Shown piece after piece: positions 5,957-32,387 of a stretch of 32,824 nucleotides of DNA (the stretch's first letter is position 1; each line of letters starts with the position of its first letter). Location: assembly GCA_021800315.1 (NCBI GenBank), contig JAJYZD010000003.1:1-32824 (forward strand), in the 5' to 3' direction. A program made the translations under genes and the position numbers. This DNA comes from Bacillota bacterium (lineage in GTDB: Bacteria > Bacillota > Desulfotomaculia > Desulfotomaculales > JAJYZD01). The notes under the pieces were generated by a model. That model made no database searches, was not told the origin of the DNA, and saw nothing but the letters and a program-made list of their open reading frames with translations.

Positions 5957-5966
5957 CGAGCGGGCT

Positions 5967-6001
5967 TGGGGAGGGCCGGGCACGATGCCCGGCCCTCCCC
6001 A
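5967..6001 (+). terminator. Perfect 16-bp GC-rich hairpin after the mutase genes
   Basis: Left arm 5967-5982 and right arm 5986-6001 pair perfectly around a 3-nt CGA loop, 11 nt after the small-subunit stop. There is no U-run, so it may be a weak terminator, an RNA-stabilising hairpin or an attenuator. It lies just before the ribosome binding region of the next gene. Confidence 0.5.
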
Positions 6002-6020
6002 GCAGAAGGTGGTGACCGCC

Positions 6021-6941: not shown

Positions 6942-7037
6942 CCCGGACGGAGCATCCTGACGCTCGGGAACCAACCTTGGTTTCCTCATCTGTCGAACCC
7001 AAACCACGTCACGATAACCACCGGAACGGTTCCATGT

Positions 7038-7290: not shown

Positions 7291-7351
7291 CTGCAGGAAT
7301 CGTCCTGTAAGGATATGGGCATAGTAAGCGCATCTAATTTCCGGCCGGCAG

Positions 7352-7368
7352 TTCGCGAAAAACGCGAA
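7352..7368 (+). promoter_or_regulatory. Small inverted repeat before the sugar transporter
   Basis: TTCGCG and CGCGAA flank a five-A loop, ending 7 nt before the ribosome binding site of the transporter. It may be an operator or leader hairpin. Confidence 0.3.
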
Positions 7369-7395
7369 TCACAGCAGGTGAGGTGGAAAATATCC

Positions 7396-8739: not shown

Positions 8740-8753
8740 GGGAGTGGCTTCTT

Positions 8754-11284: not shown

Positions 11285-13336
11285 TCAGATCAGTCCGGCC
11301 ACTACCTGCATCAGGTCTAAAACGGGGATGTCGCTGGGATGACCCGGCTGCGTCCGGGCTAAATGCAGGCGTTCGAAGCAGGCCGGGCAGTCGATCAGTA
11401 GTTCATCGACACCCAGTTTGTCGGCGTCCAACATTACATTATTCGCCATATCAATGGACATTGGGGGATGGGCCCGCCTGATGCCGCCCCCGGCACCACA
11501 ACATTTCGCAAACCGGCCATGGTCAGGCATTTCCACCAACTCCAGACCGTGAACGTACTCCAGTACCTGCCGGGGCGGACGGATGACTTCGCGCGATCCC
11601 CGGGCCAGGTTGCACGGATCGTGGTAGGTCACCTTGCGCCTGTATTCCCGGGTGAGGACCAGCCTGCCTTGCGCCAGAGCCGGGGCCACCACCTCCGTAG
11701 TATGCACCACCTCGAACGCCAACTCCCGGCCAAGAAATACCGGCCAGTTGGGAACAATCATGTTCAGGCAACACGGGCAGGAGGTGACGAGACGCCGGAC
11801 TCCCCGCTTTTCCAAAGCCTCCACATTATGACGTACCAACTCTTCCACCAATTGATGCTCGCCGACGATCCACAGCGGGAAACCGCAGCACCACTCATCG
11901 TCCAAAATGGTAAACTCCACGCCTGCCGCCTGCAGGACCTTCACCGCTCCCGCCACCATCGGCCGGGCGGCGTAGGCTCCGGAGCAGCCCGCAAAAAAGG
12001 CCGTCCGGGCCTGCCTAAGCACCTTCACTTCCGGCGGAATAAAGGCCAGCCGGTCAGCATGCGGTTGGCCGTAGGGATTATTGGTCTGAAAGATGATGGT
12101 CCGTAAATCACGCTGCGGGCCCACGGGCCCACTTTCCAACTCAACCATCTTGTGCCGCAGCGCCGGCCACAGCCGCAGGCAATTGACGCCCACCGGACAG
12201 TGTTCCCCGCATACACCGCAAACGGTACATCGGTAAAGGGCGTCGGTGAGCCGGTCTATCTTACCTTTATCCAGGGACCGCTCCCCCCGAAGAAGGGCCC
12301 CCGCGCCGCGCTGAGACGCCAACAGGCCCTTGAAGAGGCTGATCTTCTCCGGTGGTGATATTTCCGGGGTGCCGCCGGCTTCCTGCACCGGGCAAAATTC
12401 GAGGCATTGTCCGCAGCGGGTGCAGGCATCAAGGGAAGCCAGGTTTAAAGTAGACAGCCCTTCCCATAGTTTTATCTGTCCCTTTCCGGTCCTGGAGGCC
12501 GGGAGCAGTTCCACCGCCGAGGCCGTTTTCCCGGCGCGGCTGTGGTCCAGCGACCCGGCATCCGTGGTCAGCGGCGCCACATATATATGGAACAACTTGG
12601 AGAACGGAATGTACGCGATCGTGCAAAGAGCCAGAAAAACGTGGAAAAACCACAAGTACTGATGCCATTCGCCGGCCGAGGCCGGGCCGGCCGTCAGGAA
12701 CAGCCGCCCGGCCCATGCTCCCGGCGTAGGCCAAAAAAGCTCGGGGGTAGCCGGACCCTGGGCAGCCATACGGCTGCCCTCGACCAGAAAACCCGTTCCC
12801 CCCACAAGGAAGAAAGTCAGCAGAATCCCCAGGTCTTCCGCCGCATTCACCCGCCGCCGGGCGGGCGTTAGGAAAAGGCGCCGCACCAGCATGCCCAGAA
12901 TCCCGAGGACAAAGGCCGCACCGGCCCAGTTCACGACCAGCTTATAGACATAAAAGACTTCCCCATGCAAAAAGGCCAGCCCGAAATCATGGCTGACCGC
13001 CAAAAGCAGGCTGGCGGTCAAAAGCAAAAGGAAGCCCCAAATCACCAGTATAAGGGCTATCCCCCGGAAAACGCTGTAGCGAAAAACGCGACGGGCTAAA
13101 AGGCAGTCCGCGGAGAAAAAACGGGAAAGGGACCAGACGACAAACCGCCAGCCTCTTCTACCACCGAAATCACCGGCGGCCGGCCTTCCGGACTGAAACC
13201 ATAACGAAACCCGTAGCCATACGCCCCAGGCTAATACCGCGAGCGCGAGGGCGGCAGCCAGGTAAAAAGCAACAATCACCGGACCTGAGACGCCGTAAAA
13301 GACCGGCCGGGCATAAGATGGTGCTAGGGGTTGCAA
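11285..13336 (-). CDS. Membrane HdrDE/EMO-like Fe-S oxidoreductase (cytochrome b + CCG domains)
   Basis: 683 residues. The N-terminal ~260 residues hold five or six transmembrane helices of NarI/HdrE type, with histidines (WFFHVFLAL, KLFHI) suited to haem b. Two ferredoxin-like [4Fe-4S] motifs follow (CTRCGQCLEFCP near 303, CTVCGVCGEHCP near 368), then two CCG domains: WCCGFPLW with SCPCCLN (about 481-522) and KCCGAGGG with DCPACF (about 610-650). Relatives include membrane heterodisulfide reductase and the ETF:menaquinone oxidoreductase (EMO, DUF224) of fatty-acid oxidisers, which couple Fe-S chemistry to quinones. An in-frame TTG at 13354 adds six residues, but TTG 13336 has AAAGGTG at proper spacing. 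It is the last gene of the methyltransferase run and might re-oxidise ETF, or exchange electrons with the QueG-like protein. Confidence 0.82.
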   Translation of the reverse strand: MQPLAPSYARPVFYGVSGPVIVAFYLAAALALAVLAWGVWLRVSLWFQSGRPAAGDFGGRRGWRFVVWSLSRFFSADCLLARRVFRYSVFRGIALILVIWGFLLLLTASLLLAVSHDFGLAFLHGEVFYVYKLVVNWAGAAFVLGILGMLVRRLFLTPARRRVNAAEDLGILLTFFLVGGTGFLVEGSRMAAQGPATPELFWPTPGAWAGRLFLTAGPASAGEWHQYLWFFHVFLALCTIAYIPFSKLFHIYVAPLTTDAGSLDHSRAGKTASAVELLPASRTGKGQIKLWEGLSTLNLASLDACTRCGQCLEFCPVQEAGGTPEISPPEKISLFKGLLASQRGAGALLRGERSLDKGKIDRLTDALYRCTVCGVCGEHCPVGVNCLRLWPALRHKMVELESGPVGPQRDLRTIIFQTNNPYGQPHADRLAFIPPEVKVLRQARTAFFAGCSGAYAARPMVAGAVKVLQAAGVEFTILDDEWCCGFPLWIVGEHQLVEELVRHNVEALEKRGVRRLVTSCPCCLNMIVPNWPVFLGRELAFEVVHTTEVVAPALAQGRLVLTREYRRKVTYHDPCNLARGSREVIRPPRQVLEYVHGLELVEMPDHGRFAKCCGAGGGIRRAHPPMSIDMANNVMLDADKLGVDELLIDCPACFERLHLARTQPGHPSDIPVLDLMQVVAGLI

Positions 13337-13432
13337 GTTTTCACCTTTTTTCAATCGCTGATTTTTTCCAACACGTACCTGAAAATACCCCTGCCCCTGT
13401 CACTTAACCCACGCCCCTGCCAGGTGCCGACT

Positions 13433-14215
13433 TTAAAGCGCCATACTCCCCGCTCGTCGCGGACCCTGCCCCGGCGGCGGGTCTTCCCGCGCAAACGGCC
13501 GCCTGGTTATCTTCCCGGTGTAGGGGCAAGCCAAAATACAAAGACCGCAAATGGCGCGTCCCGTCTTTTCCCGGTTCGCGGTCAAACGACCGGTACAGGC
13601 CTGCACGTCTATCTGCCCGGCCGGACCGGCGCTGGACCATTCCCGGTCCGGTATGGCCTGCACCGGGCAGCCGTCGACGCAGCGACGACACTTGCCGCAC
13701 CGTCCGGACCACAGCGGGGATTGGCAGACCGCGAGGGGGGCGTTGGTCAAAACGGTGGCCAAACTCAGGAGTGGTCCGTAGCGCTCGTTGATCAGCAGCC
13801 CGCTCTTCCCGACCCAGCCCAACCCGGCGCAGGTCGCCGCGGTTTTATGGGGGAAAAGAGGATAGATCCGGGCTATGAAGCGGGAATCCCGCCGTAGGGA
13901 ATCCGGGGGTATAGCCAGGGTCCTCCATCCCCGGCTCTTCAAATAGCGGACCAGCCAGCCCTGGACCCGTTCCAGCCGCTGGTCGACGTCCGCCATTTGA
14001 TTACAGTAAGCCGTTACGCCGCCGGAAGAAACCACGTTCCCGCCGCCGGAAGGATGGGCAACCGCCAGGGACACGGCTTTATCCAAATGCCGCAATTCCC
14101 CGGCCAGACCGCGGCTGACATCGCCATACCCTACCAGGGTGACCCCCAGGGACACCAACCGGTCGCTCAAATCCCGCTGCCAGTCCACGGGCATGACTTC
14201 GCCAGCCACTGTCAT
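13433..14215 (-). CDS. Short QueG-like 4Fe-4S double-cluster protein
   Basis: 260 residues. The middle (RDSRFIARIYPLFPHKTAA, AGLGWVGKSGLLINERYG) and the double-cluster segment (CGKCRRCVDGCPVQAI, then CTGRL and ICGLCILACPYTGK) match the Fe-S half of epoxyqueuosine reductase and reductive dehalogenases. QueG itself is about 380 residues and has a C-terminal HEAT region; this protein stops soon after the second cluster. A tRNA-modification role is therefore unlikely. Its place between a UroD-family methyltransferase and a membrane oxidoreductase suggests electron delivery to the corrinoid protein or activator (inference). The ATG has AAGGGGAC just upstream. It lies 47 bp after the UroD-family gene. 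Confidence 0.72.
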   Translation of the reverse strand: MTVAGEVMPVDWQRDLSDRLVSLGVTLVGYGDVSRGLAGELRHLDKAVSLAVAHPSGGGNVVSSGGVTAYCNQMADVDQRLERVQGWLVRYLKSRGWRTLAIPPDSLRRDSRFIARIYPLFPHKTAATCAGLGWVGKSGLLINERYGPLLSLATVLTNAPLAVCQSPLWSGRCGKCRRCVDGCPVQAIPDREWSSAGPAGQIDVQACTGRLTANREKTGRAICGLCILACPYTGKITRRPFAREDPPPGQGPRRAGSMAL

Positions 14216-14262: not shown

Positions 14263-15315
14263 CTAAAGCGCTTTCCGGGCCCAGTTCGACGCCCCGTATT
14301 GTCTAACCGTATCCACCATAGTCCGGAGATTGGCCAGGGGAGCCGTCGGCCAGATATCACAGGATGGCCAGAGGGCGTCCACCCCCCCTGCCAGGCTGGC
14401 CAGCACCGCGGCCTCAACATCCTCCGGCCGGCCGTTCACCAGGATGTTATAGGCATCGATATTGCCGAACAGCAATGGTTCACGGCCGATTTTCTCCCTG
14501 GTCTTTTTCAGGTCGTTCTTAGGCTCCACGCTCAGCGCGTCCGCTCCGCATTCATTCATCAGGTCGATCACCAGGTTGGTATCCCCGCAAATGTGCAGGA
14601 TCCGGGGTGATGCCATCGCCTTAAAGATCCGGACCAGGTGCGGTTTAATCACCTGCCGGAAGCTGCGCGGACTGAGGATGTCCGCGGTCGCCCCCATTTC
14701 CCGGATGGTGATGTAGTCGGCGCCGGCTGCCCGGTAGGCCGCCGCCATGGTGATGATGACCCCGGAGAGGGTTTCCAGGAGGGCGTTGACCTTGGCCGGG
14801 CTCCGGGCGGTCAGCTTGAAGAGGTCGTTCAAGTCCATCAACTGTCCGGCCAGGGTGTACGGTCCAAGCAACCAACTGCCGACCGGGACCGTTGCCCCGA
14901 CATCCTTCTTCAGCAATCCGATGGCTTCCATTACCAGCGGAAAGCGGCCCCGCTCCGGGAGGTCGGCGGGAACCGTCACCTTTTCCATGTCTTCCGGCGA
15001 GTGAACTATTTTCGCCTTGATCGTCGGGTAGAGCACCTGGCCGACATCTTCGTAGGCATTCATGACGCAGCCCAGCGCCTCGGCTTCAACGCACATATCG
15101 AAAGGGACCACCGCGCACTCGTAGCCAAACAGGCGGTACGAACTGGCGGCCGCGTTGGCCATTTGCACCGGATCACCGTGGATGGCCGCGAACTTGTACC
15201 CATACTCGGCCAGACCGGCTGTAGTAACGTTTCCCATCCCGCTGTAACAGGCGATCCGATCGGTTTTCCGCCCGGCGAACAAGCCCAGCACCCTGTCCCT
15301 GCTGGAGACGCTCAT
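14263..15315 (-). CDS. UroD-family (MtaA/MtvB-like) corrinoid methyltransferase
   Basis: 350 residues. This family, once annotated as uroporphyrinogen decarboxylase, includes zinc methyltransferases that move methyl groups between a substrate and a corrinoid protein (MtaA, MtbA, MtvB, OdmB). The zinc motif is intact: HICGDT near 239 and the distal cysteine in WPSCDIWP near 318. GPYTLAGQLMDLNDLFKL is a family signature. It follows the MtrH-family gene by 23 bp, with AAGGAGG before the ATG. The four UroD-family proteins here differ clearly; this one has WPSCD where two others have MPGCD, so it may have a different methyl donor or acceptor. It may be the substrate demethylase or a second-step enzyme; sequence alone does not say. 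Confidence 0.87.
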   Translation of the reverse strand: MSVSSRDRVLGLFAGRKTDRIACYSGMGNVTTAGLAEYGYKFAAIHGDPVQMANAAASSYRLFGYECAVVPFDMCVEAEALGCVMNAYEDVGQVLYPTIKAKIVHSPEDMEKVTVPADLPERGRFPLVMEAIGLLKKDVGATVPVGSWLLGPYTLAGQLMDLNDLFKLTARSPAKVNALLETLSGVIITMAAAYRAAGADYITIREMGATADILSPRSFRQVIKPHLVRIFKAMASPRILHICGDTNLVIDLMNECGADALSVEPKNDLKKTREKIGREPLLFGNIDAYNILVNGRPEDVEAAVLASLAGGVDALWPSCDIWPTAPLANLRTMVDTVRQYGASNWARKAL

Positions 15316-15338: not shown

Positions 15339-16298
15339 CTAATTTGTCGCTGCCGCCGGCGGCTCTTCCAACCGGGCCGCAAAATCGGGGAAGAATCTAC
15401 GGACGGGGTGGCCGGGGCCGGCCGGCAGCACTCCCGTTTCCCCGCCGGCCAGGGTCGTCAGCAGCATACTCGCCGTAGCCACCGCGGGCAGTATTTTCGG
15501 CAGGTTTATAATGGGACCGGTAAAAAGGAGATCGGTCCACAGGAAAGCGGCAACGGCCTGCCCGGCGGCGTTCATGGCGTTGAAACCCTCGGCGCCCCAC
15601 ATTTCGCGAGCCTCTTTCCACATGTAGGTGCCGTTCGAGGAAGCGACGCCCGCCGGCCAACCGAACTCCTCCTTCATCAACCGGCAGGCGAGGCAGGAAA
15701 AAGCCGTGGAAGGAAGGTTCATCGTAGCCGCATCCACCAGGATACTGGCAAAATCATCCTCCCCGATTATCTCCAGCATCTTGCGCAGTCCGCTCACTCT
15801 GCCCGCGGCTGTCTGATCCTCCTGGTTGAAGGCCTGCACCACGACGTGCCTGACGCCCAGTTCCTTCAGACGGGCTACCTGGCCCGCTATATCCTTGTCC
15901 CACGGCGTGATGCTGTTGTACAGCAGCCGGTCATGCACACCCAGCCCGGCTGCGTAGGCCGCCGCCTCCAGACGGGTCTTCTCCACCCATACGTCGATGC
16001 CGAAAGGCTGTTCCGAGACGCCGAGGAAAAAATCAATATAGGTTTTCATCTCGTCCAGCGAATTGGCCACCAATGCCACCAGGGCCCCAACGCCAGTTTG
16101 GGCGGACAACTCTTCCTGCCGCAGGATGTAATCCCGGGCCTTGACCCGGTCAAACTTCCTTTCCTTCCTGCTTTCCAGAATTCTGTCCCCGTTGTGGAAC
16201 ATCGACGAAACAACCAGCGGCGGATTTTCCCCGGGCTGCCCGCCGACCGCCCACGGACCGATGCGGCAAACCCTTTGCTCCCGGTTCAACTTAAACAC
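15339..16298 (-). CDS. MtrH-family pterin (tetrahydrofolate) methyltransferase
   Basis: 319 residues. Family members are TIM-barrel, pterin-binding methyltransferases; MtrH moves the methyl group between tetrahydromethanopterin and a corrinoid, and bacterial homologues should use tetrahydrofolate. Diagnostic stretches are REQRVCRIGPWAVGGQPGE, SSMFHNGDRI, YNSITPWDKDI, DAATMNLPST and ASSNGTYMW. The longer reading frame up to 16514 overlaps the activator gene; the real start is GTG 16298 (VFKLNREQ), preceded by AAGGGGG at 8 nt. The start overlaps the activator's stop by 8 nt, suggesting translational coupling. It would accept the methyl group from the corrinoid protein, the job done by MtvA in acetogen O-demethylases. 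Confidence 0.88.
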   Translation of the reverse strand: MFKLNREQRVCRIGPWAVGGQPGENPPLVVSSMFHNGDRILESRKERKFDRVKARDYILRQEELSAQTGVGALVALVANSLDEMKTYIDFFLGVSEQPFGIDVWVEKTRLEAAAYAAGLGVHDRLLYNSITPWDKDIAGQVARLKELGVRHVVVQAFNQEDQTAAGRVSGLRKMLEIIGEDDFASILVDAATMNLPSTAFSCLACRLMKEEFGWPAGVASSNGTYMWKEAREMWGAEGFNAMNAAGQAVAAFLWTDLLFTGPIINLPKILPAVATASMLLTTLAGGETGVLPAGPGHPVRRFFPDFAARLEEPPAAATN

Positions 16299-18276
16299 GT
16301 ACCGAGACCCCCTTTTCTTGCCACTTCGGTATCCTGTCCAAAACAGCCTGGATGTGGGGAAACCCGTCCCCGGCATGCGGAAAGGCCATCGCCGCGGCAA
16401 ACCTTTCCTGGAAGTCCGGCTCGACCGCCGTCTCGACAAACTCGACCGTTCCCGCAATCCGGACGGCCTCGCGGCGCTTCTCCACGTCGAACAGGGCCAG
16501 CCTGGCACCGTCACCGGCCGCGTTGCCCACGGGCATGACGTCCTCCAGGTCGCAGTCGGGAATCATCCCGATAACCATGGCGCTCTCCTTGTCGATATAG
16601 CTGCCGAAGGCGCCGGCCAGCGTAACACTGTTCACGGCGTCCACGCCCAGCTTTTCCATCAGGTAGCGCGCTCCCACGTACAAGGCGGCCTTGGCCAGTT
16701 GCACCGCCCGGACATCGCCCTGGGTGAAGGTGATATCGCGGCCGATGGATGTCTCCTGCGCCCACGCCAGCACGAATTCCGATTTCCCGTCCTCCCCCTT
16801 GCGTAGCCGGGGGGAAGCGATTTTCAGGTTGAAGCGGCCGCTTTTTTCCACGATCCCGCTCTTGAACAACTCAGCCATGACATCAATGATTCCGGAGCCG
16901 CAGAGTCCTTTGGCCTGCGGGTTGTTTACCCCGGGGTACCAGCCGTCCAGTCCGATCACTTTGTAGGAAACAGCCAGGGTTTCGGGATTGATACGCACCT
17001 TTTCGATGGCTCCCGGCGAGGCCCGCATACCGAACTTGATCTGGGCCCCCTCCAGGGCCGGGCCGGTCGCACAGGACGTACACAGAAGCCGCCGGGCGTT
17101 GCCGATGTCGATTTCACCGTTGGTGCCGATGTCGATGATCATGCGGATTTTTTCCGGTTCCTTGTATGGTTCTTCCGCTATAAGTACGCCTACGTTATCC
17201 GGCCCGACGAAGCCCGCTTCGACCGGCAGGGAATGCACGTTGGCGCCCCGGCACACCTTTATTCCCAGGTCCCGGGCCTTGATGTCCAGCGCGTTTTTGG
17301 TAGCCGCGGTAAACGGGGAGCGGCCCAGAAACCGTGGTTCGATGCCCAGGGCGATGTGCTGCATGGCCGTGTTGAATACCAGGGTTACCTCCAGGATATC
17401 ATCCGCCGTAAGGCCGGCCTTCCCCGCCAGGCGCCCGGCCAGGGTGTTCAGACCCTCGATGATGGCTCCGCGCATTTTCGCCAGGCCGTCGTCGTTCATC
17501 ATACCGTAGGTTATGCGGGAAAGCACGTCTTCGCCGTAGCGCACCTGCGGGTTCATCATGGAGTCGACGGCGAGCACCTGCCCGTTACGCAGGTCGCACA
17601 GGTAGGCGGCCACGGTGGTGGTGCCGATGTCCACGGCCAACCCCACGCAGTGCTCCACCAGACCGGGTTCCACCAGGATTATTTCCCGGCTGTTCCATAC
17701 GGTTACCGTAACCTTCCAGTCCCCTTCGCGGACGACGTCCGGCAGACAGGTCAATACCGAATAGTCCACGGCCAGGTCTTCCGGTACACCGTACTTGGCG
17801 GCCAGGGTCCGCCTGATCCGCTCGGCGTCACCGCGGTGATCATCCAGCGTGGCCGGCGTCATTTCAATGTAATACTTCCGGACGGCCGGGTTCAGGTTGA
17901 ACACGCGTTCCTTGCCGGTCTCCAGCACCACCTGCCTGGCTCCCCTGCTTTCCTCCGGCACGAAAACCAGGACGTCTCCCCGTACCGCGGCGCAGCAGGC
18001 CAGACGGTATCCTCCGGCCAGCTCTTCCTCCGTCAAAAATTCCCCTTCATCCCCGGCCAGGGGTGAAAGGTTCTCCATGCGCGAGTCGATACCGAATTTC
18101 TCGAAAAAACCCTCTTCAATCTTCACCTTGCACTTGCCGCATACCCGGGAGCCGCCGCAAACACTCTCGATATCCACGCCCAACTGCCGGGCCGCTTCCA
18201 AAACGGTAACCCCTTCCGGTACCTGGCCACGCCGGCCGGATGGCTGAAAAATCAAGGTCACTGAGGTCGATCCCAT
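16291..18276 (-). CDS. Reductive activator of corrinoid proteins (RACo-type ASKHA ferredoxin)
   Basis: 661 residues. It restores the inactive Co(II) form of a corrinoid protein to Co(I) using ATP. The N-terminal [2Fe-2S] domain has Cys40, Cys46, Cys49 (CGGSRVCGKC) and Cys94 (RLACCA). A linker region follows, then an ASKHA ATPase domain with GLAVDIGTTTVAAYL, IDIGTNGEIDIG, TSCATGPALEGAQI, GLCGSGIIDVMAE and LAGAFGSYID. Length and domain order match RACo and the O-demethylase activators (AE/OdmD). GGGGAGAAGG lies before the ATG. The corrinoid protein gene is 154 bp upstream, so its likely client is clear. Confidence 0.92.
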   Translation of the reverse strand: MGSTSVTLIFQPSGRRGQVPEGVTVLEAARQLGVDIESVCGGSRVCGKCKVKIEEGFFEKFGIDSRMENLSPLAGDEGEFLTEEELAGGYRLACCAAVRGDVLVFVPEESRGARQVVLETGKERVFNLNPAVRKYYIEMTPATLDDHRGDAERIRRTLAAKYGVPEDLAVDYSVLTCLPDVVREGDWKVTVTVWNSREIILVEPGLVEHCVGLAVDIGTTTVAAYLCDLRNGQVLAVDSMMNPQVRYGEDVLSRITYGMMNDDGLAKMRGAIIEGLNTLAGRLAGKAGLTADDILEVTLVFNTAMQHIALGIEPRFLGRSPFTAATKNALDIKARDLGIKVCRGANVHSLPVEAGFVGPDNVGVLIAEEPYKEPEKIRMIIDIGTNGEIDIGNARRLLCTSCATGPALEGAQIKFGMRASPGAIEKVRINPETLAVSYKVIGLDGWYPGVNNPQAKGLCGSGIIDVMAELFKSGIVEKSGRFNLKIASPRLRKGEDGKSEFVLAWAQETSIGRDITFTQGDVRAVQLAKAALYVGARYLMEKLGVDAVNSVTLAGAFGSYIDKESAMVIGMIPDCDLEDVMPVGNAAGDGARLALFDVEKRREAVRIAGTVEFVETAVEPDFQERFAAAMAFPHAGDGFPHIQAVLDRIPKWQEKGVSVRV

Positions 18277-18430: not shown

Positions 18431-19090
18431 TTAAAGCCCGCGCAGCGAACTGATCATGTTGATGGCGTCGCGCAAGGCGTTGGTGGCATCCTTGGCATAA
18501 CCGTCGGCGCCCCAGCGCTCGGCGATTTCCTCGTTGACGGGAGCGCCGCCGATCATGATTTTGGCTTTCGGATTCTTGGCCTTGATCACTTTAATGATGT
18601 CCTTCATCCCCACCATCGTTGTCGTCATCATAGCGGACAGGGCCACGATCTCGGAGTCTGTTTTCAGTTGTTCCTCGACGAACTTCTCGAGCGGTACGTC
18701 GCGGCCCAGGTCGTGCACGACGAAGCCGGCCGCATCAAACATCAGCTTTACAATATTTTTGCCGATATCATGCACGTCCCCCTGTACCACCCCCATGACA
18801 ACCTGGCCCTTCGGCTTCGAATTTTCCTTCGAAATCAACGGACGCAGAATATCCAGTCCGGCGTACAGTGCATCAGCGCACATCAACAGTTCCGGCACGA
18901 AATATTCCTGAATTTCGTAGAGACGGCCTACTTCCTGCATGCCGACCACCAGGCCGTCGAAAATGGCCTCGTGCGGTTCCATCCCTTCCCTGACGGATTC
19001 ATTCGCCGCATCGCGGGCCGCATCCTCATCGTAGTTAACTACGGCGTCGCCGAGTTTCTTCAACAGTTCCTGTTTTCTTTCCGGTGTCAT
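18431..19090 (-). CDS. Methyltransferase corrinoid protein (MtaC/MttC/MtvC-like)
   Basis: 219 residues. A helical cap domain (about 1-90) is followed by the B12-binding Rossmann domain with GDVHDIGKN (His107 as lower cobalt ligand), SAMMTTTMVGMKDIIKVI and MIGGAPVNEEIAERWGADGY. It carries the methyl group between UroD-family methyltransferases and the MtrH-family enzyme. AAGGGAG lies 8 nt before the ATG. It is the only corrinoid protein in the window although four UroD-family proteins are encoded, so one carrier may serve several partners. Confidence 0.94.
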   Translation of the reverse strand: MTPERKQELLKKLGDAVVNYDEDAARDAANESVREGMEPHEAIFDGLVVGMQEVGRLYEIQEYFVPELLMCADALYAGLDILRPLISKENSKPKGQVVMGVVQGDVHDIGKNIVKLMFDAAGFVVHDLGRDVPLEKFVEEQLKTDSEIVALSAMMTTTMVGMKDIIKVIKAKNPKAKIMIGGAPVNEEIAERWGADGYAKDATNALRDAINMISSLRGL

Positions 19091-19153: not shown

Positions 19154-20410
19154 TTAGGACGACTGCGCCACGACCGCCCCGCCGCCCGCCTGTTCTTCAC
19201 AAAAGTCCGCCAGTTGCCGCTTCGGCTCCCCGGCAATCAGGACGCCGGCGATGCTCAGCAGGAACATCAGGCTGCCCAGGCGGAAGGCCACGGGGATGGA
19301 ATAGTATTTGATCAGGATTCCCGCCACCAGGGGCGCAAAGAGAGCACCGACCCTCCCCACGGTCAAGGAGAAAGATGTCGCCGTACCACGCATCTCGGTC
19401 GGGAAGGACTCTCCGCAATACAGGATCCCGTTCACCCAGGGCCCCTGGTAGATACCGAAAACCAGGAAACCGAGAACTATCAGCAGCGGCAATGAATCCA
19501 CCCGCCGGGAAGTGAAGAAGTACATGGCCACGGCACCCGCCACGGCGGTCAGGATAGTGGCGTTTCTCCGGCCCAGGCGGTCGCCCAGCCAGCCCGAGCC
19601 GACCACGAAGACTATGGCAAGCAGGTAGATGAGGGCCATGGCGCCCGTCATCCGCCCGGGGGACAGGTGGCCTTTCTGCATCAGGTACAACGGCAGGTAA
19701 ACGGAGTAGGACCAGTAAGTGTATTCGGTCCCGATCCAGGCTATGGTGGTGCCGATTAAGGCACGGCGGGAACTTTTGCCCGCGAAAAGCTGCCTGATGG
19801 TAGTTTTTCTTTTTTCGCCGGCAAATCGCTGTTGGACCGTCTGAAAGCGGGGTGTTTCGACCAGGAACTGCCTGACGAACACGATAAGCAAACCGGGGAG
19901 CAGGCACAGAAGGAAGGCATAACGCCAGCCTTCGGCCACGTTGAGGAACAGTCCGAAAAACCCCACGGCTGCCAACGAACCCAGGCTGTAGAAGCTGTAA
20001 AACATCCCGAAACCGCGGCCGCGGCTCTTCTCCGGCCAGGTTTCCGCCAGATAGGTCGTGGCCACCGGCAGTTCCATCCCGCCGCCTAGTCCGGTGAGCG
20101 CCCGGGCGATTCCCAGCATGGCCGGGGAAGACGCCAGTCCGGTCAGCGCCGTGGTCACGGTGTAACCGAGGATGGATATGCCCAGTCCTTTCTTTCTGCC
20201 GATGTAATCAGACATCAAGCCGCCGGCGAAGGTTCCGCCGGCATAGCCCACCAGGAAAATCGTGGCGATGAGCCCGATGGTCGTGGTGGAGGCATGCAGG
20301 CTTTCCTCTATCTTCGGCACGCTCACGGCATAGAGGTTGATCACCAGGGCGTCGAAGAACCAGCCGGCCCCCGCGATCAGCAGCACAAAAACACCCAGCC
20401 CGGCGATCAC
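19154..20410 (-). CDS. MFS transporter, aromatic-acid/metabolite:H+ symporter-like
   Basis: At least 418 residues, 12 predicted TM helices. FFDALVINLYAVSVP in TM1, SDYIGRKKG after TM2, the ETWPEKSRGRGFG loop, GDRLGRRN after TM8 and ESFPTEMRGTATSF resemble the AAHS and related proton symporters for aromatic acids and small carboxylates. In this gene set it should import the methylated substrate. The start is uncertain: GTG 20410 lacks a ribosome binding site, whereas the frame is open to 20464, where an ATC codon lies 4 nt after GAGGTG (20469-20474). The extra residues would read IVDNLRKAETGGRTGNGP. The true start may be non-canonical. Confidence 0.85.
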   Translation of the reverse strand: MIAGLGVFVLLIAGAGWFFDALVINLYAVSVPKIEESLHASTTTIGLIATIFLVGYAGGTFAGGLMSDYIGRKKGLGISILGYTVTTALTGLASSPAMLGIARALTGLGGGMELPVATTYLAETWPEKSRGRGFGMFYSFYSLGSLAAVGFFGLFLNVAEGWRYAFLLCLLPGLLIVFVRQFLVETPRFQTVQQRFAGEKRKTTIRQLFAGKSSRRALIGTTIAWIGTEYTYWSYSVYLPLYLMQKGHLSPGRMTGAMALIYLLAIVFVVGSGWLGDRLGRRNATILTAVAGAVAMYFFTSRRVDSLPLLIVLGFLVFGIYQGPWVNGILYCGESFPTEMRGTATSFSLTVGRVGALFAPLVAGILIKYYSIPVAFRLGSLMFLLSIAGVLIAGEPKRQLADFCEEQAGGGAVVAQSS

Positions 20411-20482: not shown

Positions 20483-21499
20483 TCAATGCTCATCCGTTAC
20501 GGACAGAAAAGCTTCGATGTTTCGCCAAGGGGTGGCCGGGGCCAGGTCGCAACCCGGCATCAATACGAAACCCCGGTGCTCACGCAACTCCGCCAGCGCC
20601 CTCTGTACGCCGGCTCGGATTTCGGACGGCCCCGCCCCGTAGAGCAGCAACGGATCGATATTCCCGCCCATGCCCAGACCCGCCAAACCGTCGCGGGCCA
20701 GCGCCAGGCTCACCAGGCTGTCGAAACTGAACGCCGAAAGCCCCCGGATACGGGCGACCGCCTGGAGCCTGTCCGCGGTACGCCCGCAGATGTGCAAAAG
20801 ACCGGCCCGTTCTCCACCGCCGGTAAGCGAACTGAAGAGTTCACTCAACGGTTCCGCCACGAATTCGGCGAACATCCTGGGCGAAATCAGGTCGCCCGAA
20901 GCCAGTGGCTCGGCCAGGTAGACGATATCAACGCTGTCCAGCACCGGCCGGTAAAACTCCAGGACCGCCTCCTGCGCCATGGCGGTGAAGGAGCGGAGCA
21001 GGCCGGGATTACCCAGGCACAGCCGCAACAACGCCTGCGGTCCGAACACCTGGCCGGCCACGGTAAAAGGTCCCCAGGACACCATCGTGACGGGGAATTG
21101 ATCCCCCAGACGGTCCGCCACGCGCCGGGTGGCTTCCTGAACCGTCTCCACCGTACGGCTTTGCGCCAGCTCCTTCACCCGGCACCGGATGGACGGATCG
21201 ACCGGCAGGATCCGGGCCGGCACGGGCGGAGACGGGTCGGGCCAAACCAGTTCGGTACGGGCCAGCGCAGCCGGCAGGGCGTTGTTGAACCCGCCCCCGA
21301 CGAAGACTATGCCCCGGCCCAGCCGCCTTGCCGTGCTGACAATGGCGCCGGCCAGCCGAACGGGGTCAAGGGCCGCTTCCCGGAAGCCGATCCCGTTCTG
21401 GACCATGGTCCAGGCGCCCCCGCCCAGCAGGCTGACCGGCAATTGCGCCGGTGTTTGACCCCGCAGGGCCGCCAGGATATCCGCCTTGGAACCGCTCAC
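20483..21499 (-). CDS. UroD-family corrinoid methyltransferase paralogue
   Basis: 338 residues. It has the MtaA-like pattern: MVSWGPFTVAGQVFGPQALL, the zinc motif HICGRT near 234 and MPGCDLAPATPWRNIEAFL near 316. Arg replaces the usual Asp or Asn after HICG. The closest relative in the window is the next gene upstream: both start with a GGGAWTMVQ/GGGMWTLYQ motif and share GYNN/GFNN and a SGDLISPRMFAEF/SGDLLSRKQFAEF block, so they look like a tandem duplication that has diverged. The start is GTG, 24 bp after the paralogue's stop, with only a weak ribosome binding site, which fits coupled translation. Confidence 0.87.
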   Translation of the reverse strand: MSGSKADILAALRGQTPAQLPVSLLGGGAWTMVQNGIGFREAALDPVRLAGAIVSTARRLGRGIVFVGGGFNNALPAALARTELVWPDPSPPVPARILPVDPSIRCRVKELAQSRTVETVQEATRRVADRLGDQFPVTMVSWGPFTVAGQVFGPQALLRLCLGNPGLLRSFTAMAQEAVLEFYRPVLDSVDIVYLAEPLASGDLISPRMFAEFVAEPLSELFSSLTGGGERAGLLHICGRTADRLQAVARIRGLSAFSFDSLVSLALARDGLAGLGMGGNIDPLLLYGAGPSEIRAGVQRALAELREHRGFVLMPGCDLAPATPWRNIEAFLSVTDEH

Positions 21500-21523: not shown

Positions 21524-22555
21524 CTAACCCGGCGGCGTAGCGGCGGCCGTCCGCAAAAGCGCCTCTACATTCTCCCGCGGAACCGTGGGCCCGATATCGC
21601 AGCCGGGCATCAGGATGAAGCCGCCGCCCCCACCCAGCCTCTGGATGACGTCCCGCGCCTTTTGGGCTACTTGCTCCGGACCGGCCTGCAACATCACGGC
21701 CACCGGGTCGAGATTACCGGCCAGGCATCTTTTGCCGCGGAAGGCTTCCCGCGCCTTGACGAGGTCAACCTTGTGGTCGACGCTGATGATATCCGCCCCG
21801 GTCTCCAGCAGAAGATCCAGCCTGTCCGTGGTGTCGCCGCAGATGTGCAGCAGGGTTTTGACCTTCTTTTGGTGCCATCGGTCCGTCAGTTGGCGCAGGG
21901 AAGGCAGAACGAACTCGGCGAACTGTTTCCGGGAAAGCAGGTCGCCCGACGCCGTGGGATCGGCGATGGAAACCATTTCGATTAGGCCGCGCGAAATCAA
22001 CGGTTCGTAGAAACCGGTGATGAACTCCCGCGCAAAGTCGACCACGGCGTGCACCATTTCCCTGGCCTTGAACGTGCCCCGCATCAACGGTTCCACCCCG
22101 CAGATCTGGCCCGCCAGGGTGAATGGTCCCCAGGAGGTAGTGGTCACGACAAACCGGTCGCCGATGCGTCCGGACACAATTTCGGTGGTTTTCCAGACCG
22201 TTTGGATCGTTTCGTGCCCGGCCATTCTCCCTGTATCCAGGGCCCGCACCCCGGCCAGATCGTGAACCAGGGCTTCTTCCAGGTCCGGAGCACCGATCTT
22301 GCGGTACTTGATCGTCCCGCCCAACGCCGCCACATGGAGGTTGTTGTAGCCGGAGCCGCAGTAGACCATGGGATTGCCCACTTCCTCGGCCATCCGGACG
22401 AATACGCCGGCCATGCGCCGGGGATCCCGGGCCAGGGACTCAAACGTCTCCCCCGCCTGATAGAGGGTCCACATGCCCCCCCCGTAGTAGGCGGCCGGGA
22501 CCCGTTCGGTATCCTGCAAGTCGACGGCCGCCAGGATCGCTTCTTTTCCGGTCAT
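21524..22555 (-). CDS. UroD-family corrinoid methyltransferase paralogue
   Basis: 343 residues. Signatures are TTSWGPFTLAGQICGVEPLM, HICGDTTDRLDLL near 235 (zinc His and Cys), AGNLDPVAVML and LMPGCDIGPTVPRENVEALL near 318. The residues needed for zinc and methyl transfer are in place; whether it demethylates a substrate or acts on methyl-corrinoid is not clear. AGGGGGATAGT precedes the ATG. It lies 44 bp after the carboxymuconolactone-decarboxylase-like gene and 24 bp before its paralogue. The pair might be two subunits of one enzyme, or two enzymes for different methyl donors. Confidence 0.88.
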   Translation of the reverse strand: MTGKEAILAAVDLQDTERVPAAYYGGGMWTLYQAGETFESLARDPRRMAGVFVRMAEEVGNPMVYCGSGYNNLHVAALGGTIKYRKIGAPDLEEALVHDLAGVRALDTGRMAGHETIQTVWKTTEIVSGRIGDRFVVTTTSWGPFTLAGQICGVEPLMRGTFKAREMVHAVVDFAREFITGFYEPLISRGLIEMVSIADPTASGDLLSRKQFAEFVLPSLRQLTDRWHQKKVKTLLHICGDTTDRLDLLLETGADIISVDHKVDLVKAREAFRGKRCLAGNLDPVAVMLQAGPEQVAQKARDVIQRLGGGGGFILMPGCDIGPTVPRENVEALLRTAAATPPG

Positions 22556-22599: not shown

Positions 22600-23049
22600 T
22601 CAGCCGATGCCCTTGTCGAAGCGGGGCGGCGGCAGGTACTCCCACGGTTCGCCTTTACGGTAGTGGTCGGCGATGTCCATCACCTTGGCCGCATATTCAA
22701 ACGCATAGGGGATGCCGGGACCGCCGGGCACGAAACCGGCGCCGATCATACCCACCGCTGCGGCCTCGAAAATCTCCTGGTCGGTGGCTCCGGCCTCAAT
22801 GGCGGGAACCACGTGAATTATGCAGCGCGGCGACAGGTACGAAACACCGATGGCCGTAAAGATCAGTTCCTTGACTTTCCGGCTCAGCGCTCCGTCGGCC
22901 CAGATGGAATTGTAGAAGTCGGCGAAAGTGCGGCCCGATTCCGGGTTCACCTGGTTGATAACTCCAAACATCCGGGGAATGAAACCCATTGTTTCCTTCA
23001 TGTACTTGTTTACTTCCTCGGCTGTCATCCGGCCTTTCTCTTCACTCAC
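22600..23049 (-). CDS. Carboxymuconolactone decarboxylase (CMD/AhpD)-family protein
   Basis: 149 residues, all-helical AhpD-like fold. ALSRKVKELIFTAIGVSYL, CIIHVVPAIEAGATDQEIFE and AAAVGMIGAGFVPGGPGIPY match the family. AhpD peroxidases use a CxxC pair; here there is only Cys76, with His79 close by (SPRCIIH), so alkylhydroperoxidase activity is unlikely. Family members without the pair include ring-opening decarboxylases and proteins of unknown role. The start is GTG with GGAGGG 6 nt upstream. Second gene after the promoter, 82 bp from the OsmC-like gene; a role in handling the substrate or the demethylated product is possible. Confidence 0.82.
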   Translation of the reverse strand: MSEEKGRMTAEEVNKYMKETMGFIPRMFGVINQVNPESGRTFADFYNSIWADGALSRKVKELIFTAIGVSYLSPRCIIHVVPAIEAGATDQEIFEAAAVGMIGAGFVPGGPGIPYAFEYAAKVMDIADHYRKGEPWEYLPPPRFDKGIG

Positions 23050-23131
23050 GACTATCCCTCCACCTTAAATTTTGTTCCCAACGGGTTCAGGCGCCCAAAC
23101 GGTGCCCGCGGGTCTTCCGGTACCCGGTGTC

Positions 23132-23662
23132 CTACACGAAGGACCGGTTAACGAGTTCACCCACCAGCCTGACCTCCCGGGAAAGGGTGGTACCGACCGG
23201 CGACGTCTTCCAGACCCTGCCGTGCAACTCCTCCATTCTGGACCGCGGCGCGTCGGTTTTAAGAAAAACCCTCGCCCGGATCTCGGTGAAACCGGGCAGT
23301 TCCGACTGGTCCGCCTCGGGCGCCAGGCCCAAAAAGCCCGGCAGATCAATGTTGCCTTCCAGTTCGATCTCCAGCTTCTGCACATTGATACCCATAACGG
23401 CGGCATTCATGGCGTAACCGATACACAGGCAGGAGCCGTAGGATGCCAGGACCATTTCCACCGGGTTGGGTGCCGTGTTGGTGCCGCCAAGGTCAGGCGG
23501 TTCGTCCATGGCCAGCGTAAACCCACGGATATTGCTCTCCACCGCGAAGCCGCCACGCCAGCACGACCGTGCCCGCCACAAGGTTCTCCCCAGATCGGGA
23601 TTTTCTTTTACGGCCTGGACGATCTGTCCAAGCTTTTCGGGATCAAGACCGTTGATGACCAT
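23132..23662 (-). CDS. OsmC-family protein lacking the second cysteine
   Basis: 176 residues from ATG 23662, which has GGGAGG 9 nt upstream; a TTG 21 nt earlier in the same frame overlaps that site and is less likely. APNPVEMVLASYGSCLCIGY contains the first conserved cysteine (Cys78) and GINVQKLEIELEG the usual following strand. OsmC/Ohr peroxidases have a second cysteine in a CPV motif near the C-terminus; here it reads KTSPVGTTL with Ser154. A classic dithiol peroxidase mechanism is therefore not expected. First gene of the long minus-strand run behind a consensus promoter; with the CMD-like gene it forms an unusual lead-in to methyltransferase genes. Confidence 0.85.
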   Translation of the reverse strand: MVINGLDPEKLGQIVQAVKENPDLGRTLWRARSCWRGGFAVESNIRGFTLAMDEPPDLGGTNTAPNPVEMVLASYGSCLCIGYAMNAAVMGINVQKLEIELEGNIDLPGFLGLAPEADQSELPGFTEIRARVFLKTDAPRSRMEELHGRVWKTSPVGTTLSREVRLVGELVNRSFV

Positions 23663-23958: not shown

Positions 23959-23967
23959 GTATACATT
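23956..23967. promoter_or_regulatory. 12-bp perfect palindrome over the start site (candidate operator)
   Basis: AATGTATACATT is its own reverse complement. It overlaps the last bases of the -10 box and the expected transcription start of the promoter at 23965-23993, so a bound protein would block initiation. No regulator gene lies nearby. Confidence 0.5.
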
Positions 23968-23993
23968 ATATGCCCTTTTTCGCTGCCTGTCAA
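23965..23993 (-). promoter_or_regulatory. Perfect consensus sigma-A promoter of the methyltransferase run
   Basis: On the minus strand TTGACA (23993-23988) and TATAAT (23970-23965) are separated by exactly 17 bp. It faces the OsmC-like gene, and no other promoter this good was seen in the eleven co-directional genes that follow. Confidence 0.8.
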
Positions 23994-24467: not shown

Positions 24468-25493
24468 TCAGCGCGTCGTTGCCCCACTTCCTCCGAAGTT
24501 CCGCACCGTCTCCACCATGGTTTTCAGGTTGGCCGGACCGGTACCCGGAGGCACGCCGCAACCAGGCATCAGGATGAAGTTTGCCGGTCCGCCTGCCAAG
24601 ATACAGGCGTTGGTTTCGGATTCCACCGCCACCCGGTCCCCCTGCAGGAGGGTACGGACCGGATCCACATTGCCGGCCAGTACCACCGCCGGGCCCACAC
24701 TACTTCTGGCGTCTTTGAGGCTCACCTTCTGGTCGAGGCTCAAAGCGTCGGCGCCGGTATCCCGCATCTCGGGCCAGATCTTTTCCGTGGAACCGCAAAT
24801 ATGCAGAATGACCCGGCCGCCCAGGCTGTGCACGTGCTCCACCAGCGAGGTGATGAAGGGGAAGGCGAAAGACCTGCTGTGCCGGGCGGCCAGCATGTCG
24901 GCCGATACAAAGGGTTCCGGCAGGTAAAATATCCTTGCCCCACAGCGGTAGGCTTCTTCCGCCAGGCTCTTTAAGATCCCGGTTATTTCCCTGATAATAT
25001 CCTCCAGCCGGGAAGGATTCAGGAAAATTTGCCTGAGCATCCTTTCGGCTTCGAAAACCCGCATCGCGGTAGTAAAGGGGCCTTCGAAGAGCACGCCCAG
25101 AGCCTGCCCCGCCGGTTGGCGCAGGATTGACAGCGCCTCCATCATGGCGTTGACCGAGGCTGTATTCTCCCAGGAGACGTTGCCGAATCCCTTAAAGTCA
25201 TTCAGGTCGAAGACCGTATCACCGACCGGGCCGAACGGCGACATCTTCACCTTCACCCCCATTGCTTCGGGAACAGCCATGGCGTCGGCGTATACGACCG
25301 TCCAGTCCATGCCGGTCCGGGCTTGAAACTCACCCTGTATCCGGGCCATCAGGGATCCGTCGGACCGCATTGCCGAAAGCGTACAACCGGCCATGAAGGC
25401 GGCCTGGGCCGCCCCTGTAATGATTACCGGAATACCGGAGGGTTGATGAGCCCATAAATTGGCCAGATTACCGGTGAGCGTCGCTTCAACCAC
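24468..25493 (-). CDS. UroD-family corrinoid methyltransferase, fourth paralogue
   Basis: 341 residues from GTG 25493. Family marks are EGPFTTAMRVFEAERML, the zinc motif HICGSTEKIW near 229, AGNVDPVRTLLQG and LMPGCGVPPGTGPANLKTM near 310. It is the most distant of the four: the N-terminal half (AAQAAFMAGCTLSAMRSDG) differs, and Ser-Thr follows HICG. The frame is open to 25802 but the added part is Arg/Gly-rich without family match. AAGGAG lies 12 nt before the GTG, slightly long. It is separated from the other methyltransferase genes by a 0.8-kb stretch holding their promoter, so it is probably a separate transcript. Confidence 0.85.
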   Translation of the reverse strand: MVEATLTGNLANLWAHQPSGIPVIITGAAQAAFMAGCTLSAMRSDGSLMARIQGEFQARTGMDWTVVYADAMAVPEAMGVKVKMSPFGPVGDTVFDLNDFKGFGNVSWENTASVNAMMEALSILRQPAGQALGVLFEGPFTTAMRVFEAERMLRQIFLNPSRLEDIIREITGILKSLAEEAYRCGARIFYLPEPFVSADMLAARHSRSFAFPFITSLVEHVHSLGGRVILHICGSTEKIWPEMRDTGADALSLDQKVSLKDARSSVGPAVVLAGNVDPVRTLLQGDRVAVESETNACILAGGPANFILMPGCGVPPGTGPANLKTMVETVRNFGGSGATTR

Positions 25494-26212
25494 CTTTACC
25501 CGCCACTCCTTCCATTGTTGTCGATCTTCCCGGCGTGAGCACTGGTTGCCTTTCCCGGCGCGCGCCCGGTCTCTCCTCCCGGTCCGGCCGCGCCAGGACC
25601 CCGCCGACAGGCCATCCAGGATATTTCTGCCCGCGGACCGGCATGTCCCGGAACCATGGTGACGGTCCCGAACGGGGAGAGCGGTTAGCACCACCTTCCC
25701 AAAGGCCTGTTCAGGTACAATCCCTCCGACCCACTTCCTTGCGGAGAGGAATTCTCCCGGCCGGTCCCGCTTTCCTTCCCAGACGGGCGCCTTTGGGCCC
25801 AATGGCGGCTGAAGGATGGCGACCGGTCAGCGGCTGCCCCTCAATATTCCGAAACAACTCCTGCCCGCCTCGTTGCATCGATGAGAGGGGAAGGGAAAGT
25901 TCCCTGCTTTCAGGGCGGAAGTGTCTCACTGCCCGCCGGATAAGGCGGGGGGCCCCCACGGCCTGGTTCCACCTTCCTGCCGGCTCATTGGGCAGGCCAC
26001 GTGGCCGGACTCTCCATCCTTCCGGTGCCGGAGGGGCCCTCCTGGTTGACAGTTATCCACGGCATGAAAAGCGAGTAGACGGAGTGATAGCATGGTTTGT
26101 ATCGCGTTCAGGTTTAAACCAGGCAGGTGGTCTATTCCGTGGAAGACGTTCTCCGCCTAGAAATCTTCGATGCGCCGGCGTCTGGTGTATGTCGGGATGA
26201 CGATGTCGCCTG
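25494..26212. other. 719-bp gap without a supported gene
   Basis: ORFs on both strands look like chance products of high GC. A plus-strand TTGACA at about 26044 has no matching -10 box. A 10-bp palindrome GGTTTAAACC lies near 26111. No promoter for the fourth UroD-family gene is obvious. Confidence 0.35.
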
Positions 26213-27127
26213 TCATTTCCAACTCGTCAGTGACGAGGGCCCCGTTGCACCTGGCCCTGACTCCCGGCCGGGCGGTTGGGCACCCCGGTCCTTTTCGCCG
26301 CTCTGGGCCATGGCCCAGCCGCCGGCGAACCAGCGACCGCCCGCGCCGGCCAGGACGACGTCCTTTAAGCCGCCAAGGGACTCCCCGGGCAGTGGAAGCC
26401 AGGCACTCTGGCTATACATGGACAACTGATCGGGGATGCTTCCGCCGCCGCTACGGTCAGCGATCCACCGGTTCCCGCCGGCGGGAAACATAGTGTACAG
26501 TCCCTGGGCGCCTCTGTCCATGATCGAAGATGGGACCGCCAGGGCGGTAACCCAGCTTCGCCCGCCACCCGCAGAGTAGAGGATGAATCCCTTGTTGTTA
26601 TTGCTGAAGATTTGGACGGGCTGATCTTGAACCACCACAAAAAACCCGCCGTCTGCGGCCCATGGTCCCTTCCCTATGTACCACGGCACGGGAAGGTGCA
26701 CCGGCCCCCAGGATCGCCCGGTGTCAGCCGACCGCCAAAGGGACGGTTGGTTCGCGCCTATGGCAGCCAGGACGACGCCGTCAGGGAGGGCGGCCAGTTG
26801 CTCGACCGCTCCCCCGAGTTCCTCCCCGGCCCGCCAGGAATCGCCCCCGTCGCCGGAGATCCAGACAGTGCCGTTAGAGTCTCCGGCTACCACCAGCCGG
26901 TCCGAAAGCATGACCAGGGCGGTGGGCTGAAAAGGCAGCAAGGTTGTGCTGAGTGCGCCTTGGCCGGAAGTCGCTGTTTGAGCGGCCCGGTTAACGGGAG
27001 CGGCCGGCAGCGGGGATGAAGGGGCCGGTTGGGCGGACGGCTTGCCGGTCCCGCAGGCGGTCACGAACAGGACGATGCCAAAGACCACGATGACGCGGGC
27101 AAGGGTGCCCGCCAACCGGGGTGTCAC
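26213..27127 (-). CDS. Lipoprotein with BNR/sialidase-like repeats
   Basis: 304 residues. A hydrophobic signal segment (VIVVFGIVLFVTAC) ends in a lipobox cysteine near residue 25, so the protein should be lipid-anchored outside the membrane. A Pro/Ala linker (about 30-60) precedes beta-propeller-like repeats: WISGDGGDSWRAGEEL, WRSADTGRSWGPVHLP and LYSAGGGRSWVTAL carry the S/T-x-D-x-G-x-x-W Asp-box pattern. No enzyme active site was recognised. The start is GTG behind AAGGGGGG. The C-terminal ~25 residues are low-complexity. It is likely a surface binding or scaffold protein, similar in style to the YCF48-like lipoprotein upstream. Confidence 0.75.
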   Translation of the reverse strand: MTPRLAGTLARVIVVFGIVLFVTACGTGKPSAQPAPSSPLPAAPVNRAAQTATSGQGALSTTLLPFQPTALVMLSDRLVVAGDSNGTVWISGDGGDSWRAGEELGGAVEQLAALPDGVVLAAIGANQPSLWRSADTGRSWGPVHLPVPWYIGKGPWAADGGFFVVVQDQPVQIFSNNNKGFILYSAGGGRSWVTALAVPSSIMDRGAQGLYTMFPAGGNRWIADRSGGGSIPDQLSMYSQSAWLPLPGESLGGLKDVVLAGAGGRWFAGGWAMAQSGEKDRGAQPPGRESGPGATGPSSLTSWK

Positions 27128-27579
27128 CGGGAACCCCCCTTCACCGTTCTTGCTCAGGAACCTTCTCCGATAACCGCGGGCGGCGCAGGTGCCTGCCCGG
27201 GCACGACCGCCGGGTCTTACCGGTGGACGTAGGTGTCAAGCCTGCAGTTGGCTCTGGTTTAACCGGTTGGCGGCGCCGCCCGTCCCTTCCGCGGGCGGCG
27301 CCGGACCGCCGAACTGGGTTTGGGCATTGTTCATATCCTGATGTTGAAGTCGTTCACCCTGCCTGGACACCGGCGCGCCGGAAACCGGGCGGATTGGAAG
27401 CCGGTACCGGGCCCGTGGAAAGGGAATCAACCAGGCGGATCCCGTCCCATGGCAAACAAAGACCGTGCCGGCCGGATGCCGGGACCTTGCTTTCGCGTCG
27501 AGCCCACCCCTTTTTTGCATGCGGGTGGCTTTAGTCACGCCGGTCCGGCGGAGACGGGGCGGTATACCGCCAGCCCTTC
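27128..27579. other. 452-bp gap between lipoprotein genes
   Basis: It contains a 14-bp perfect palindrome (27558-27571, GGCGGTATACCGCC) 8 nt after the upstream gene's stop and a strong GC hairpin at 27271-27303. A minus-strand frame ending at 27236 (tail NRLNQSQLQA) has no good start site and no family match, so I do not call a gene. Confidence 0.35.
27271..27303. terminator. 12-bp GC-rich inverted repeat, possible terminator
   Basis: Arms 27271-27282 and 27292-27303 pair perfectly around a 9-nt loop. There is no T-run, so termination is only a possibility. Confidence 0.3.
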
Positions 27580-28989: not shown

Positions 28990-29080
28990 CGCGAAACCTC
29001 CCTTCCCAAGGAACGCCGGCCGGCCGGTACGGAAACCGGTCCGGCTATTTCCAGCCAATGGACAAGGAGCCATGTTTCCC

Positions 29081-32104: not shown

Positions 32105-32387
32105 GCCGCCCATCCCTCCGGCACAACTATCCCCGGGATCCTACCGCCTGGTTCTTTCTCCCGCTCCGCAGTTCGCAACAAGAGGACTCCGCACCGTTGC
32201 CGCCCACCTTGGGGAACCACCTCCGCGGAGGCTCGCACGCCAGGGTCTCCGGGCCGGCTAACACCAGGGTCAAGTAATTCGAGCGAAAAGGAATCAAAAA
32301 TGGTTAGCGCTTACAGCTTGCCGCTTCCTGAACCAAGCGGATAGGCACTTCATGCATTCTTCGAGGTGCAACAGATATTTCCATTTA

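Follow-up and report, generated by a model that had tools for sequence, protein, structure and literature searches.

A conserved pair of one-thiol OsmC-like and AhpD/CMD-like proteins associated with a corrinoid methyltransferase module in archaea and bacteria

Background

The window analyzed here, a stretch of 32,824 nucleotides that makes up the whole of contig C51 in a Bacillota genome of 342 contigs, raises the question of what two proteins of the OsmC and CMD/AhpD families, whose members normally remove peroxides by means of two cysteines, might be doing next to genes for corrinoid-dependent methyl transfer when each of them lacks one of the two redox cysteines. An earlier inspection of this DNA (hereafter the sequence-only reading) had pointed out both alterations, placed the two genes at the head of a run of methyltransferases and proposed for them a non-peroxidase role, perhaps in substrate binding, ring chemistry or methyl-thiol handling.

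Results and discussion

Each protein retains a single conserved thiol

The OsmC-like protein (176 residues; 23132..23662, minus strand) and the CMD/AhpD-like protein (149 residues; 22600..23049, minus strand) match the Pfam models PF02566 (E 5e-18) and PF02627 (E 2e-9) respectively, in both cases above the Pfam cut-offs. The relevant residues of the former are C34, C78, C80 and Ser154; C78 (codon 23429-23431) is kept and Ser154 (codon 23201-23203) stands in place of the resolving cysteine, which makes this a Ser-type OsmC. Cys76 (codon 22822-22824) is the sole cysteine of the CMD-like protein and lies between S73 (22831-22833) and H79 (22813-22815). Structure models support both folds: the OsmC model (mean pLDDT 82) has as its best Foldseek match in the PDB the chain 2OPL (E 2e-13), with E. 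coli OsmC at about E 1e-7, and the CMD model has a mean pLDDT of 85 with weak Foldseek matches in the PDB, the best being 2AF7 (E 0.056). The CMD is assigned to its family mainly by the Pfam match and by hmmsearch against the AhpD 5DIK (E 6e-10).

In the ortholog alignment C78 and the T-S154-P-V stretch are present in every OsmC ortholog covering the site, and S73-P-R-C76-[IL]-[IV]-H79 is invariant across about 30 CMD orthologs, the hosts of both features being drawn from Bacillota, Chloroflexi, Desulfobacterales, Archaeoglobi, Geoglobus and Hydrothermarchaeota. The serine at the second-cysteine position and the single cysteine in place of a CxxC, as given in the sequence-only reading, are thus not only correct for the window proteins but fixed in their orthologs; because these all carry identical changes, neither chance nor sequencing error is the source of the missing cysteines. 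A misread selenocysteine was ruled out at both sites, as there is no in-frame stop at either. OsmC C78, itself invariant, aligns with C1 of canonical OsmCs, the peroxidatic cysteine on the long helix. Alignment of the CMD with canonical CMDs and solved AhpD/CMD chains (using MAFFT and HMMER) places S73 at the first cysteine of the CxxC and C76 at the second, with the spacing to the histidine one residue shorter than in the CxxC family; the typical CxxC pair plus histidine is accordingly missing from about 30 orthologs, the first cysteine being replaced and the second kept. We also considered a relocated resolving cysteine elsewhere in the same folds, but the alignment revealed none that is conserved: C34 and C80 vary among the OsmC orthologs, and the additional cysteines of the CMD orthologs are scattered and unconserved. 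The second-position cysteine that serves as the resolving residue in two-Cys Ohr/OsmC peroxidases is absent from all OsmC orthologs covering the site.

In Mycobacterium tuberculosis AhpD the second cysteine is the reactive one. Given that selenocysteine occupies the U of CxxU in CMD-like and of UxxT in OsmC-like selenoproteins (PMC13188914), and that another CMD of the same genome reads CEPU, the alignments indicate that in both proteins the retained cysteine is the nucleophile and the lost one its resolving partner. The motifs SPRC[IL][IV]H of the CMD and TSPV of the OsmC, the latter together with the kept C78, can serve as markers by which the module is findable in metagenomes.

The OsmC serine predates the operon

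At the position of Ser154 the other OsmC proteins recovered mostly read CPV, with a few reading SPM or SPV. In a maximum-likelihood tree all Ser-type OsmCs fell on one side of a branch (support 97/95), and nested within this group was the window protein's own clade (support 100/99). As the Ser-type sequences, including GSU2788 (PDB 2OPL), form one clade, the tree indicates that Ser154 is inherited from an older and wider Ser-type OsmC family and is not a novelty of the operon. Thus, the alteration noted in the sequence-only reading stands, but the operon-specific significance it implied was overstated, and we rejected Ser154 as a change specific to this operon. GSU2788, from Geobacter sulfurreducens, is the closest solved chain to the window OsmC by both sequence and fold; it shares the N-terminal extension beginning NG, the kept cysteine and Ser-Pro-Val at the C2 position, but it is only about 30% identical in the fold match and branches apart from the window protein within the Ser-type clade.

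The operon in the window

A sigma-70-type promoter match, TTGACA-17-TATAAT (12 of 12 positions), lies upstream of the OsmC gene and reads towards it (23965..23993, minus strand); two promoter matches were found in all against 0.7 expected in shuffles, this one alone being perfect. Further upstream is UroD4 (24468..25802, minus strand), an MtaA/CmuA-like methyltransferase with an HxC...C motif, whose ORF is probably over-long at the N-terminus. Downstream of the OsmC and CMD genes, on the same strand, follow UroD1 (21524..22555; zinc ligands H237, C239 and C319), an MtaA/CmuA-like corrinoid methyltransferase that is the usual partner of OsmC and CMD; UroD2 (20483..21499), also MtaA/CmuA-like, 36% identical to UroD1 and with an HxC...C zinc motif; an MFS transporter resembling aromatic acid/H+ symporters (19154..20410); a corrinoid (B12-binding) methyl carrier protein with the motif D105-x-H-x-x-G (18431..19090); a RACo-type ATP-dependent reductive activase of the corrinoid protein (16291..18276); an MtrH-type methyltransferase (15339..16514; PF02007, E 1e-43); UroD3 (14263..15315; zinc ligands H241, C243 and C319), closest to the methylcobalamin:CoM methyltransferase 4AY7; a 4Fe-4S protein (13433..14215), conserved beside the CMD in Thermincola-type operons; and an HdrED-like membrane Fe-S protein with Nitrate_red_gam, Fer4 and two CCG domains (11285..13354). 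The MtrH protein is presumed to be a methyl-corrinoid:tetrahydrofolate/tetrahydromethanopterin methyltransferase, and because its ORF overlaps that of RACo its true start is probably downstream of 16514. No TusA or DsrE gene was found in the window operon; the genome has several elsewhere.

The HxC...C motif, that is, a His-Cys-Cys set of zinc ligands, is present in all four UroDs of the window and in all UroD1 and UroD3 orthologs. Such ligation is reported as a mark of the S- and Se-methyltransferases in this superfamily, with O-demethylases replacing the cysteine ligands (Kountz and Balskus, PMC10418091). It is compatible with a methyl-selenide as well as with a methylated sulfur substrate.

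Phyletic distribution and gene neighborhoods

In the phylum search seven OsmC orthologs were recovered with e-values of about 1e-59 or better, followed by a gap to 1e-32. A scan of public genomes with two peptide patterns, which will have missed relatives, detected the OsmC clade in Bacillota, Thermincola, Archaeoglobi, Archaeoglobus, Geoglobus, Hydrothermarchaeota and Pyrohabitans, as well as in one Chloroflexi MAG and one Desulfobacterales MAG. The one-Cys CMD clade was found at the ortholog level in 22 of the 24 genomes with the OsmC clade. Among 398 other genomes sampled from the phylum, the OsmC clade occurred in 7, the CMD clade in 10 and both in 6 (Fisher p 3e-10, a value inflated by kinship, since five of the six double-positive genomes come from one family), with four genomes having the CMD without the OsmC clade. 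We consider the spread across two domains of life the stronger argument for the pairing. About half of the OsmC loci have the CMD within 10 kb, with such linkage in Geoglobus, Archaeoglobus, Hydrothermarchaeota, the Chloroflexi MAG, the Desulfobacterales MAG and Bacillota, and about a quarter of the OsmC-clade loci (approximately seven, of the Thermincola type plus two archaeal ones) are distant from all genes of the module.

The association with corrinoid methyltransferases seen in the window, whose recurrence in other genomes the sequence-only reading had named as a check, does recur in relatives, both in the co-occurrence counts and in the operons themselves. Thermincola-type operons have the order CoP-RACo-UroD1-MtrH-UroD3-ABC transporter-CMD-Fe4S-CobW-HdrE-HdrD. 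In Geoglobus, Archaeoglobus, Pyrohabitans and the Desulfobacterales MAG, the OsmC and CMD genes are found near UroD1 and near TusA and/or DsrE (these neighbors being verified with Pfam for representatives), and in Hydrothermarchaeum one CMD copy is accompanied by HdrE, HdrD, DsrE and TusA alone. At least one such partner, from the corrinoid module, the Hdr genes or the sulfur carriers, was present at all CMD loci examined except L138 and L139. The transporters adjoining the module differ between lineages, being of the MFS, SSS or NMT1-type ABC class, so that no common substrate is indicated by context. In the open-licence literature we found no description of OsmC, carboxymuconolactone decarboxylase and uroporphyrinogen decarboxylase together, nor of the OsmC-CMD pair with corrinoid proteins, TusA/DsrE or MtrH, which does not in itself prove novelty; what looks new is the pairing, rather than the serine of the OsmC.

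A proposed role in corrinoid-dependent S-demethylation

We tentatively propose, as the likeliest reading though one still short of an even bet, that the OsmC and CMD are accessories of a corrinoid module demethylating a methylated sulfur compound, in which each would use its one thiol to carry sulfur or to take part in a relay. A zinc-dependent UroD (UroD1, UroD2 or UroD3) would demethylate R-S-CH3 and methylate the Co(I) corrinoid protein, from which MtrH would move the methyl group on to tetrahydrofolate or tetrahydromethanopterin, and RACo would re-reduce stray Co(II). The freed thiol or sulfide would bind to OsmC Cys78 and CMD Cys76, forming a persulfide or mixed disulfide; having no resolving cysteine, neither protein could close an internal disulfide, and the sulfur or thiol would hence be handed on, from one to the other, to any TusA/DsrE-type carriers in the host, and to the membrane-bound HdrDE-like protein, which would swap electrons with the quinone pool. 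In this scheme we infer that the substrate is S-methylated, which way the flow runs, that the two proteins carry a persulfide or thiol, and that OsmC and CMD make contact; the gene set, its linkage and co-occurrence, the fixed cysteine losses, the kept thiols and the zinc sites are observed. A precedent for a thiol relay between the two folds is offered by Corynebacterium glutamicum, where AhpD regenerates OsmC (PMC8945050), except that here the bonds of the relay would form between molecules and not within one.

Of the three roles suggested in the sequence-only reading, methyl-thiol handling is the best fit, in view of the TusA, DsrE and HdrDE-like neighbors and the S/Se-type zinc ligands of the UroDs; ring chemistry and simple substrate binding found no support. 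Its more general suggestion of a non-peroxidase role is likely to be right, but has to be set against the reactive thiol that each protein still keeps. The Co(I) state and Fe-S clusters are both oxygen-sensitive, and the two proteins could accordingly be one-Cys peroxidases or protectors that remove traces of peroxide or reduce oxidized thiols near the Co(I) corrinoid and Fe-S proteins, drawing on a lipoyl, CoM-like or HdrDE thiol from outside as the resolving partner. We regard this as unlikely: the retained reactive thiols, and the fact that AhpD and OsmC are known reductase and peroxidase partners (PMC8945050), speak for it, but Ohr/OsmC activity reportedly depends critically on both cysteines, such proteins are missing from many corrinoid methyltransferase operons, and the linkage is to TusA/DsrE and not to AhpC, thioredoxin or lipoyl enzymes. 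The C. glutamicum system itself employs the same two folds as redox partners and differs from the window pair, whose members both lack the resolving cysteine and occur in anaerobes alongside corrinoid methyl transfer. FTN_1133, considered as a precedent for a one-Cys OsmC, was rejected, as it is not a relative of OsmC. It is highly improbable that the two proteins merely dock or scaffold the methyltransferase complex, their remaining cysteines being incidental; conserved clade-specific tails (NPxLGKTxWRA at the N-terminus of the OsmC, GExWEYLxPP at the C-terminus of the CMD) do resemble contact surfaces, but OsmC C78 and CMD S73, C76 and H79 are invariant in archaea and bacteria alike, which is difficult to account for unless these sites take part in chemistry.

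The remaining alternatives concern the substrate. The type 1 mlp gene clusters, whose core of UroD, corrinoid protein and RACo with HCC zinc was assayed with selenide (PMC10418091), share with the present set several HCC-zinc UroDs, a RACo-type activase, an anaerobic lifestyle and nearby sulfur genes. By analogy, the module could demethylate methyl-selenium compounds, with OsmC and CMD carrying selenide or selenol, as would be consistent with the selD with in-frame TGA in nearly all bacterial hosts, including this genome, and with the nearest NCBIfam models being (seleno)protein families. We consider this version unlikely, as a strong selD match is absent in most archaeal hosts, where any match is weak, and this favors sulfur over selenium as the common denominator. 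Moreover, the described type 1 clusters lack a folate methyltransferase, a feature that is not strictly defining, whereas MtrH belongs to the core in the window and its relatives, together with HdrDE-like proteins, and OsmC, CMD, MtrH and HdrD are all absent from the text of that study (PMC10418091). The O-demethylation of methoxylated aromatics by a Mto/Mtv/Odm-like system, with OsmC and CMD handling the phenolic product or its quinone, is distinctly unlikely. The operon does contain in its core the components listed for Mto in Methermicoccus, namely UroD, corrinoid protein, activase, MtrH-type MtoA and MFS (PMC8630106), and the window MFS is similar to aromatic acid symporters; but that list, for methoxyarene substrates, includes none of OsmC, CMD, TusA and DsrE, its MtoB is larger (47-48 kDa, against UroDs of about 340 residues that carry HCC zinc and are nearest to methylcobalamin:CoM methyltransferase), and O-demethylases are reported to replace one or both cysteine ligands (PMC10418091). 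The mec cassette for dichloromethane and the cmu genes for chloromethane likewise share an MtaA/CmuA-family UroD, a corrinoid protein and a folate methyltransferase, and are set apart, by their descriptions, by other regulatory genes and by naming neither OsmC nor CMD. On these descriptions we rejected placing the operon directly within Mto, mec or cmu, with zinc ligands and size arguing further against Mto.

The module is thus best described, on present comparisons, as one of the corrinoid S/Se-methyltransferase type joined by a conserved pair of one-thiol proteins from peroxidase families, with methyl-thiol handling as the best-supported, though putative, role. The proposed module offers a concrete, testable role to two widespread families whose members automatic annotation labels peroxidases or decarboxylases, and would mark a cross-domain set of genes for the turnover of methylated sulfur (or selenium) in subsurface and hydrothermal anaerobes. 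A wider proposal, which we offer as doubtful, is that of an undescribed anaerobic C1-sulfur pathway in archaea and bacteria, in which single-thiol carriers from former peroxidase families would take over the sulfur or thiol remaining from corrinoid S-demethylation and feed it, via TusA/DsrE and an HdrDE-like complex, into membrane electron transport. If true, this would parallel, in protein-bound form, the thiol chemistry of CoM and CoB in methanogens.

Additional observations

The selD gene of this genome, with its in-frame TGA, lies on contig C312 and adjoins a TusA gene. A second CMD/AhpD-like gene (L014, C74:1823-2050), in which an in-frame TGA yields the CEPU reading, is likely to encode a selenoprotein. 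In some Thermincola-type genomes (L127/L128 and L129) the whole operon from CoP to HdrED is found in two tandem copies with diverged sequences.

Several small proteins recur at the loci of relatives. A protein of 125-149 residues starting with MNYEPGM or MKYEPGM (L083:15325-15702, L057:10586-11035 and L058:4822-5265; the L083 copy without a Pfam match) adjoins the OsmC in some genomes and the CMD in another, and may for this reason be part of the same module. A small cysteine-containing protein of about 84-99 residues lies beside HdrD-like genes in Desulfobacterales and Pyrohabitans loci (L084:1623-1877, the copy there having no Pfam match, and L081:12547-12846), and the cysteine-containing DUF6951 (PF22263) is recurrent in corrinoid operons (L083:9458-9781 and other loci). 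In the window itself, three ORFs in a row at 26213-30247 (minus strand) gave beta-propeller/BNR (YCF48-like) or TolB-like matches, and a polysaccharide deacetylase comes after them at 31166-32113. The region 3880-11123 (plus strand) encodes a methylmalonyl-CoA mutase, a protein with a metallo-beta-lactamase fold, a sugar transporter and an enzyme of the GH15 glucodextranase type.
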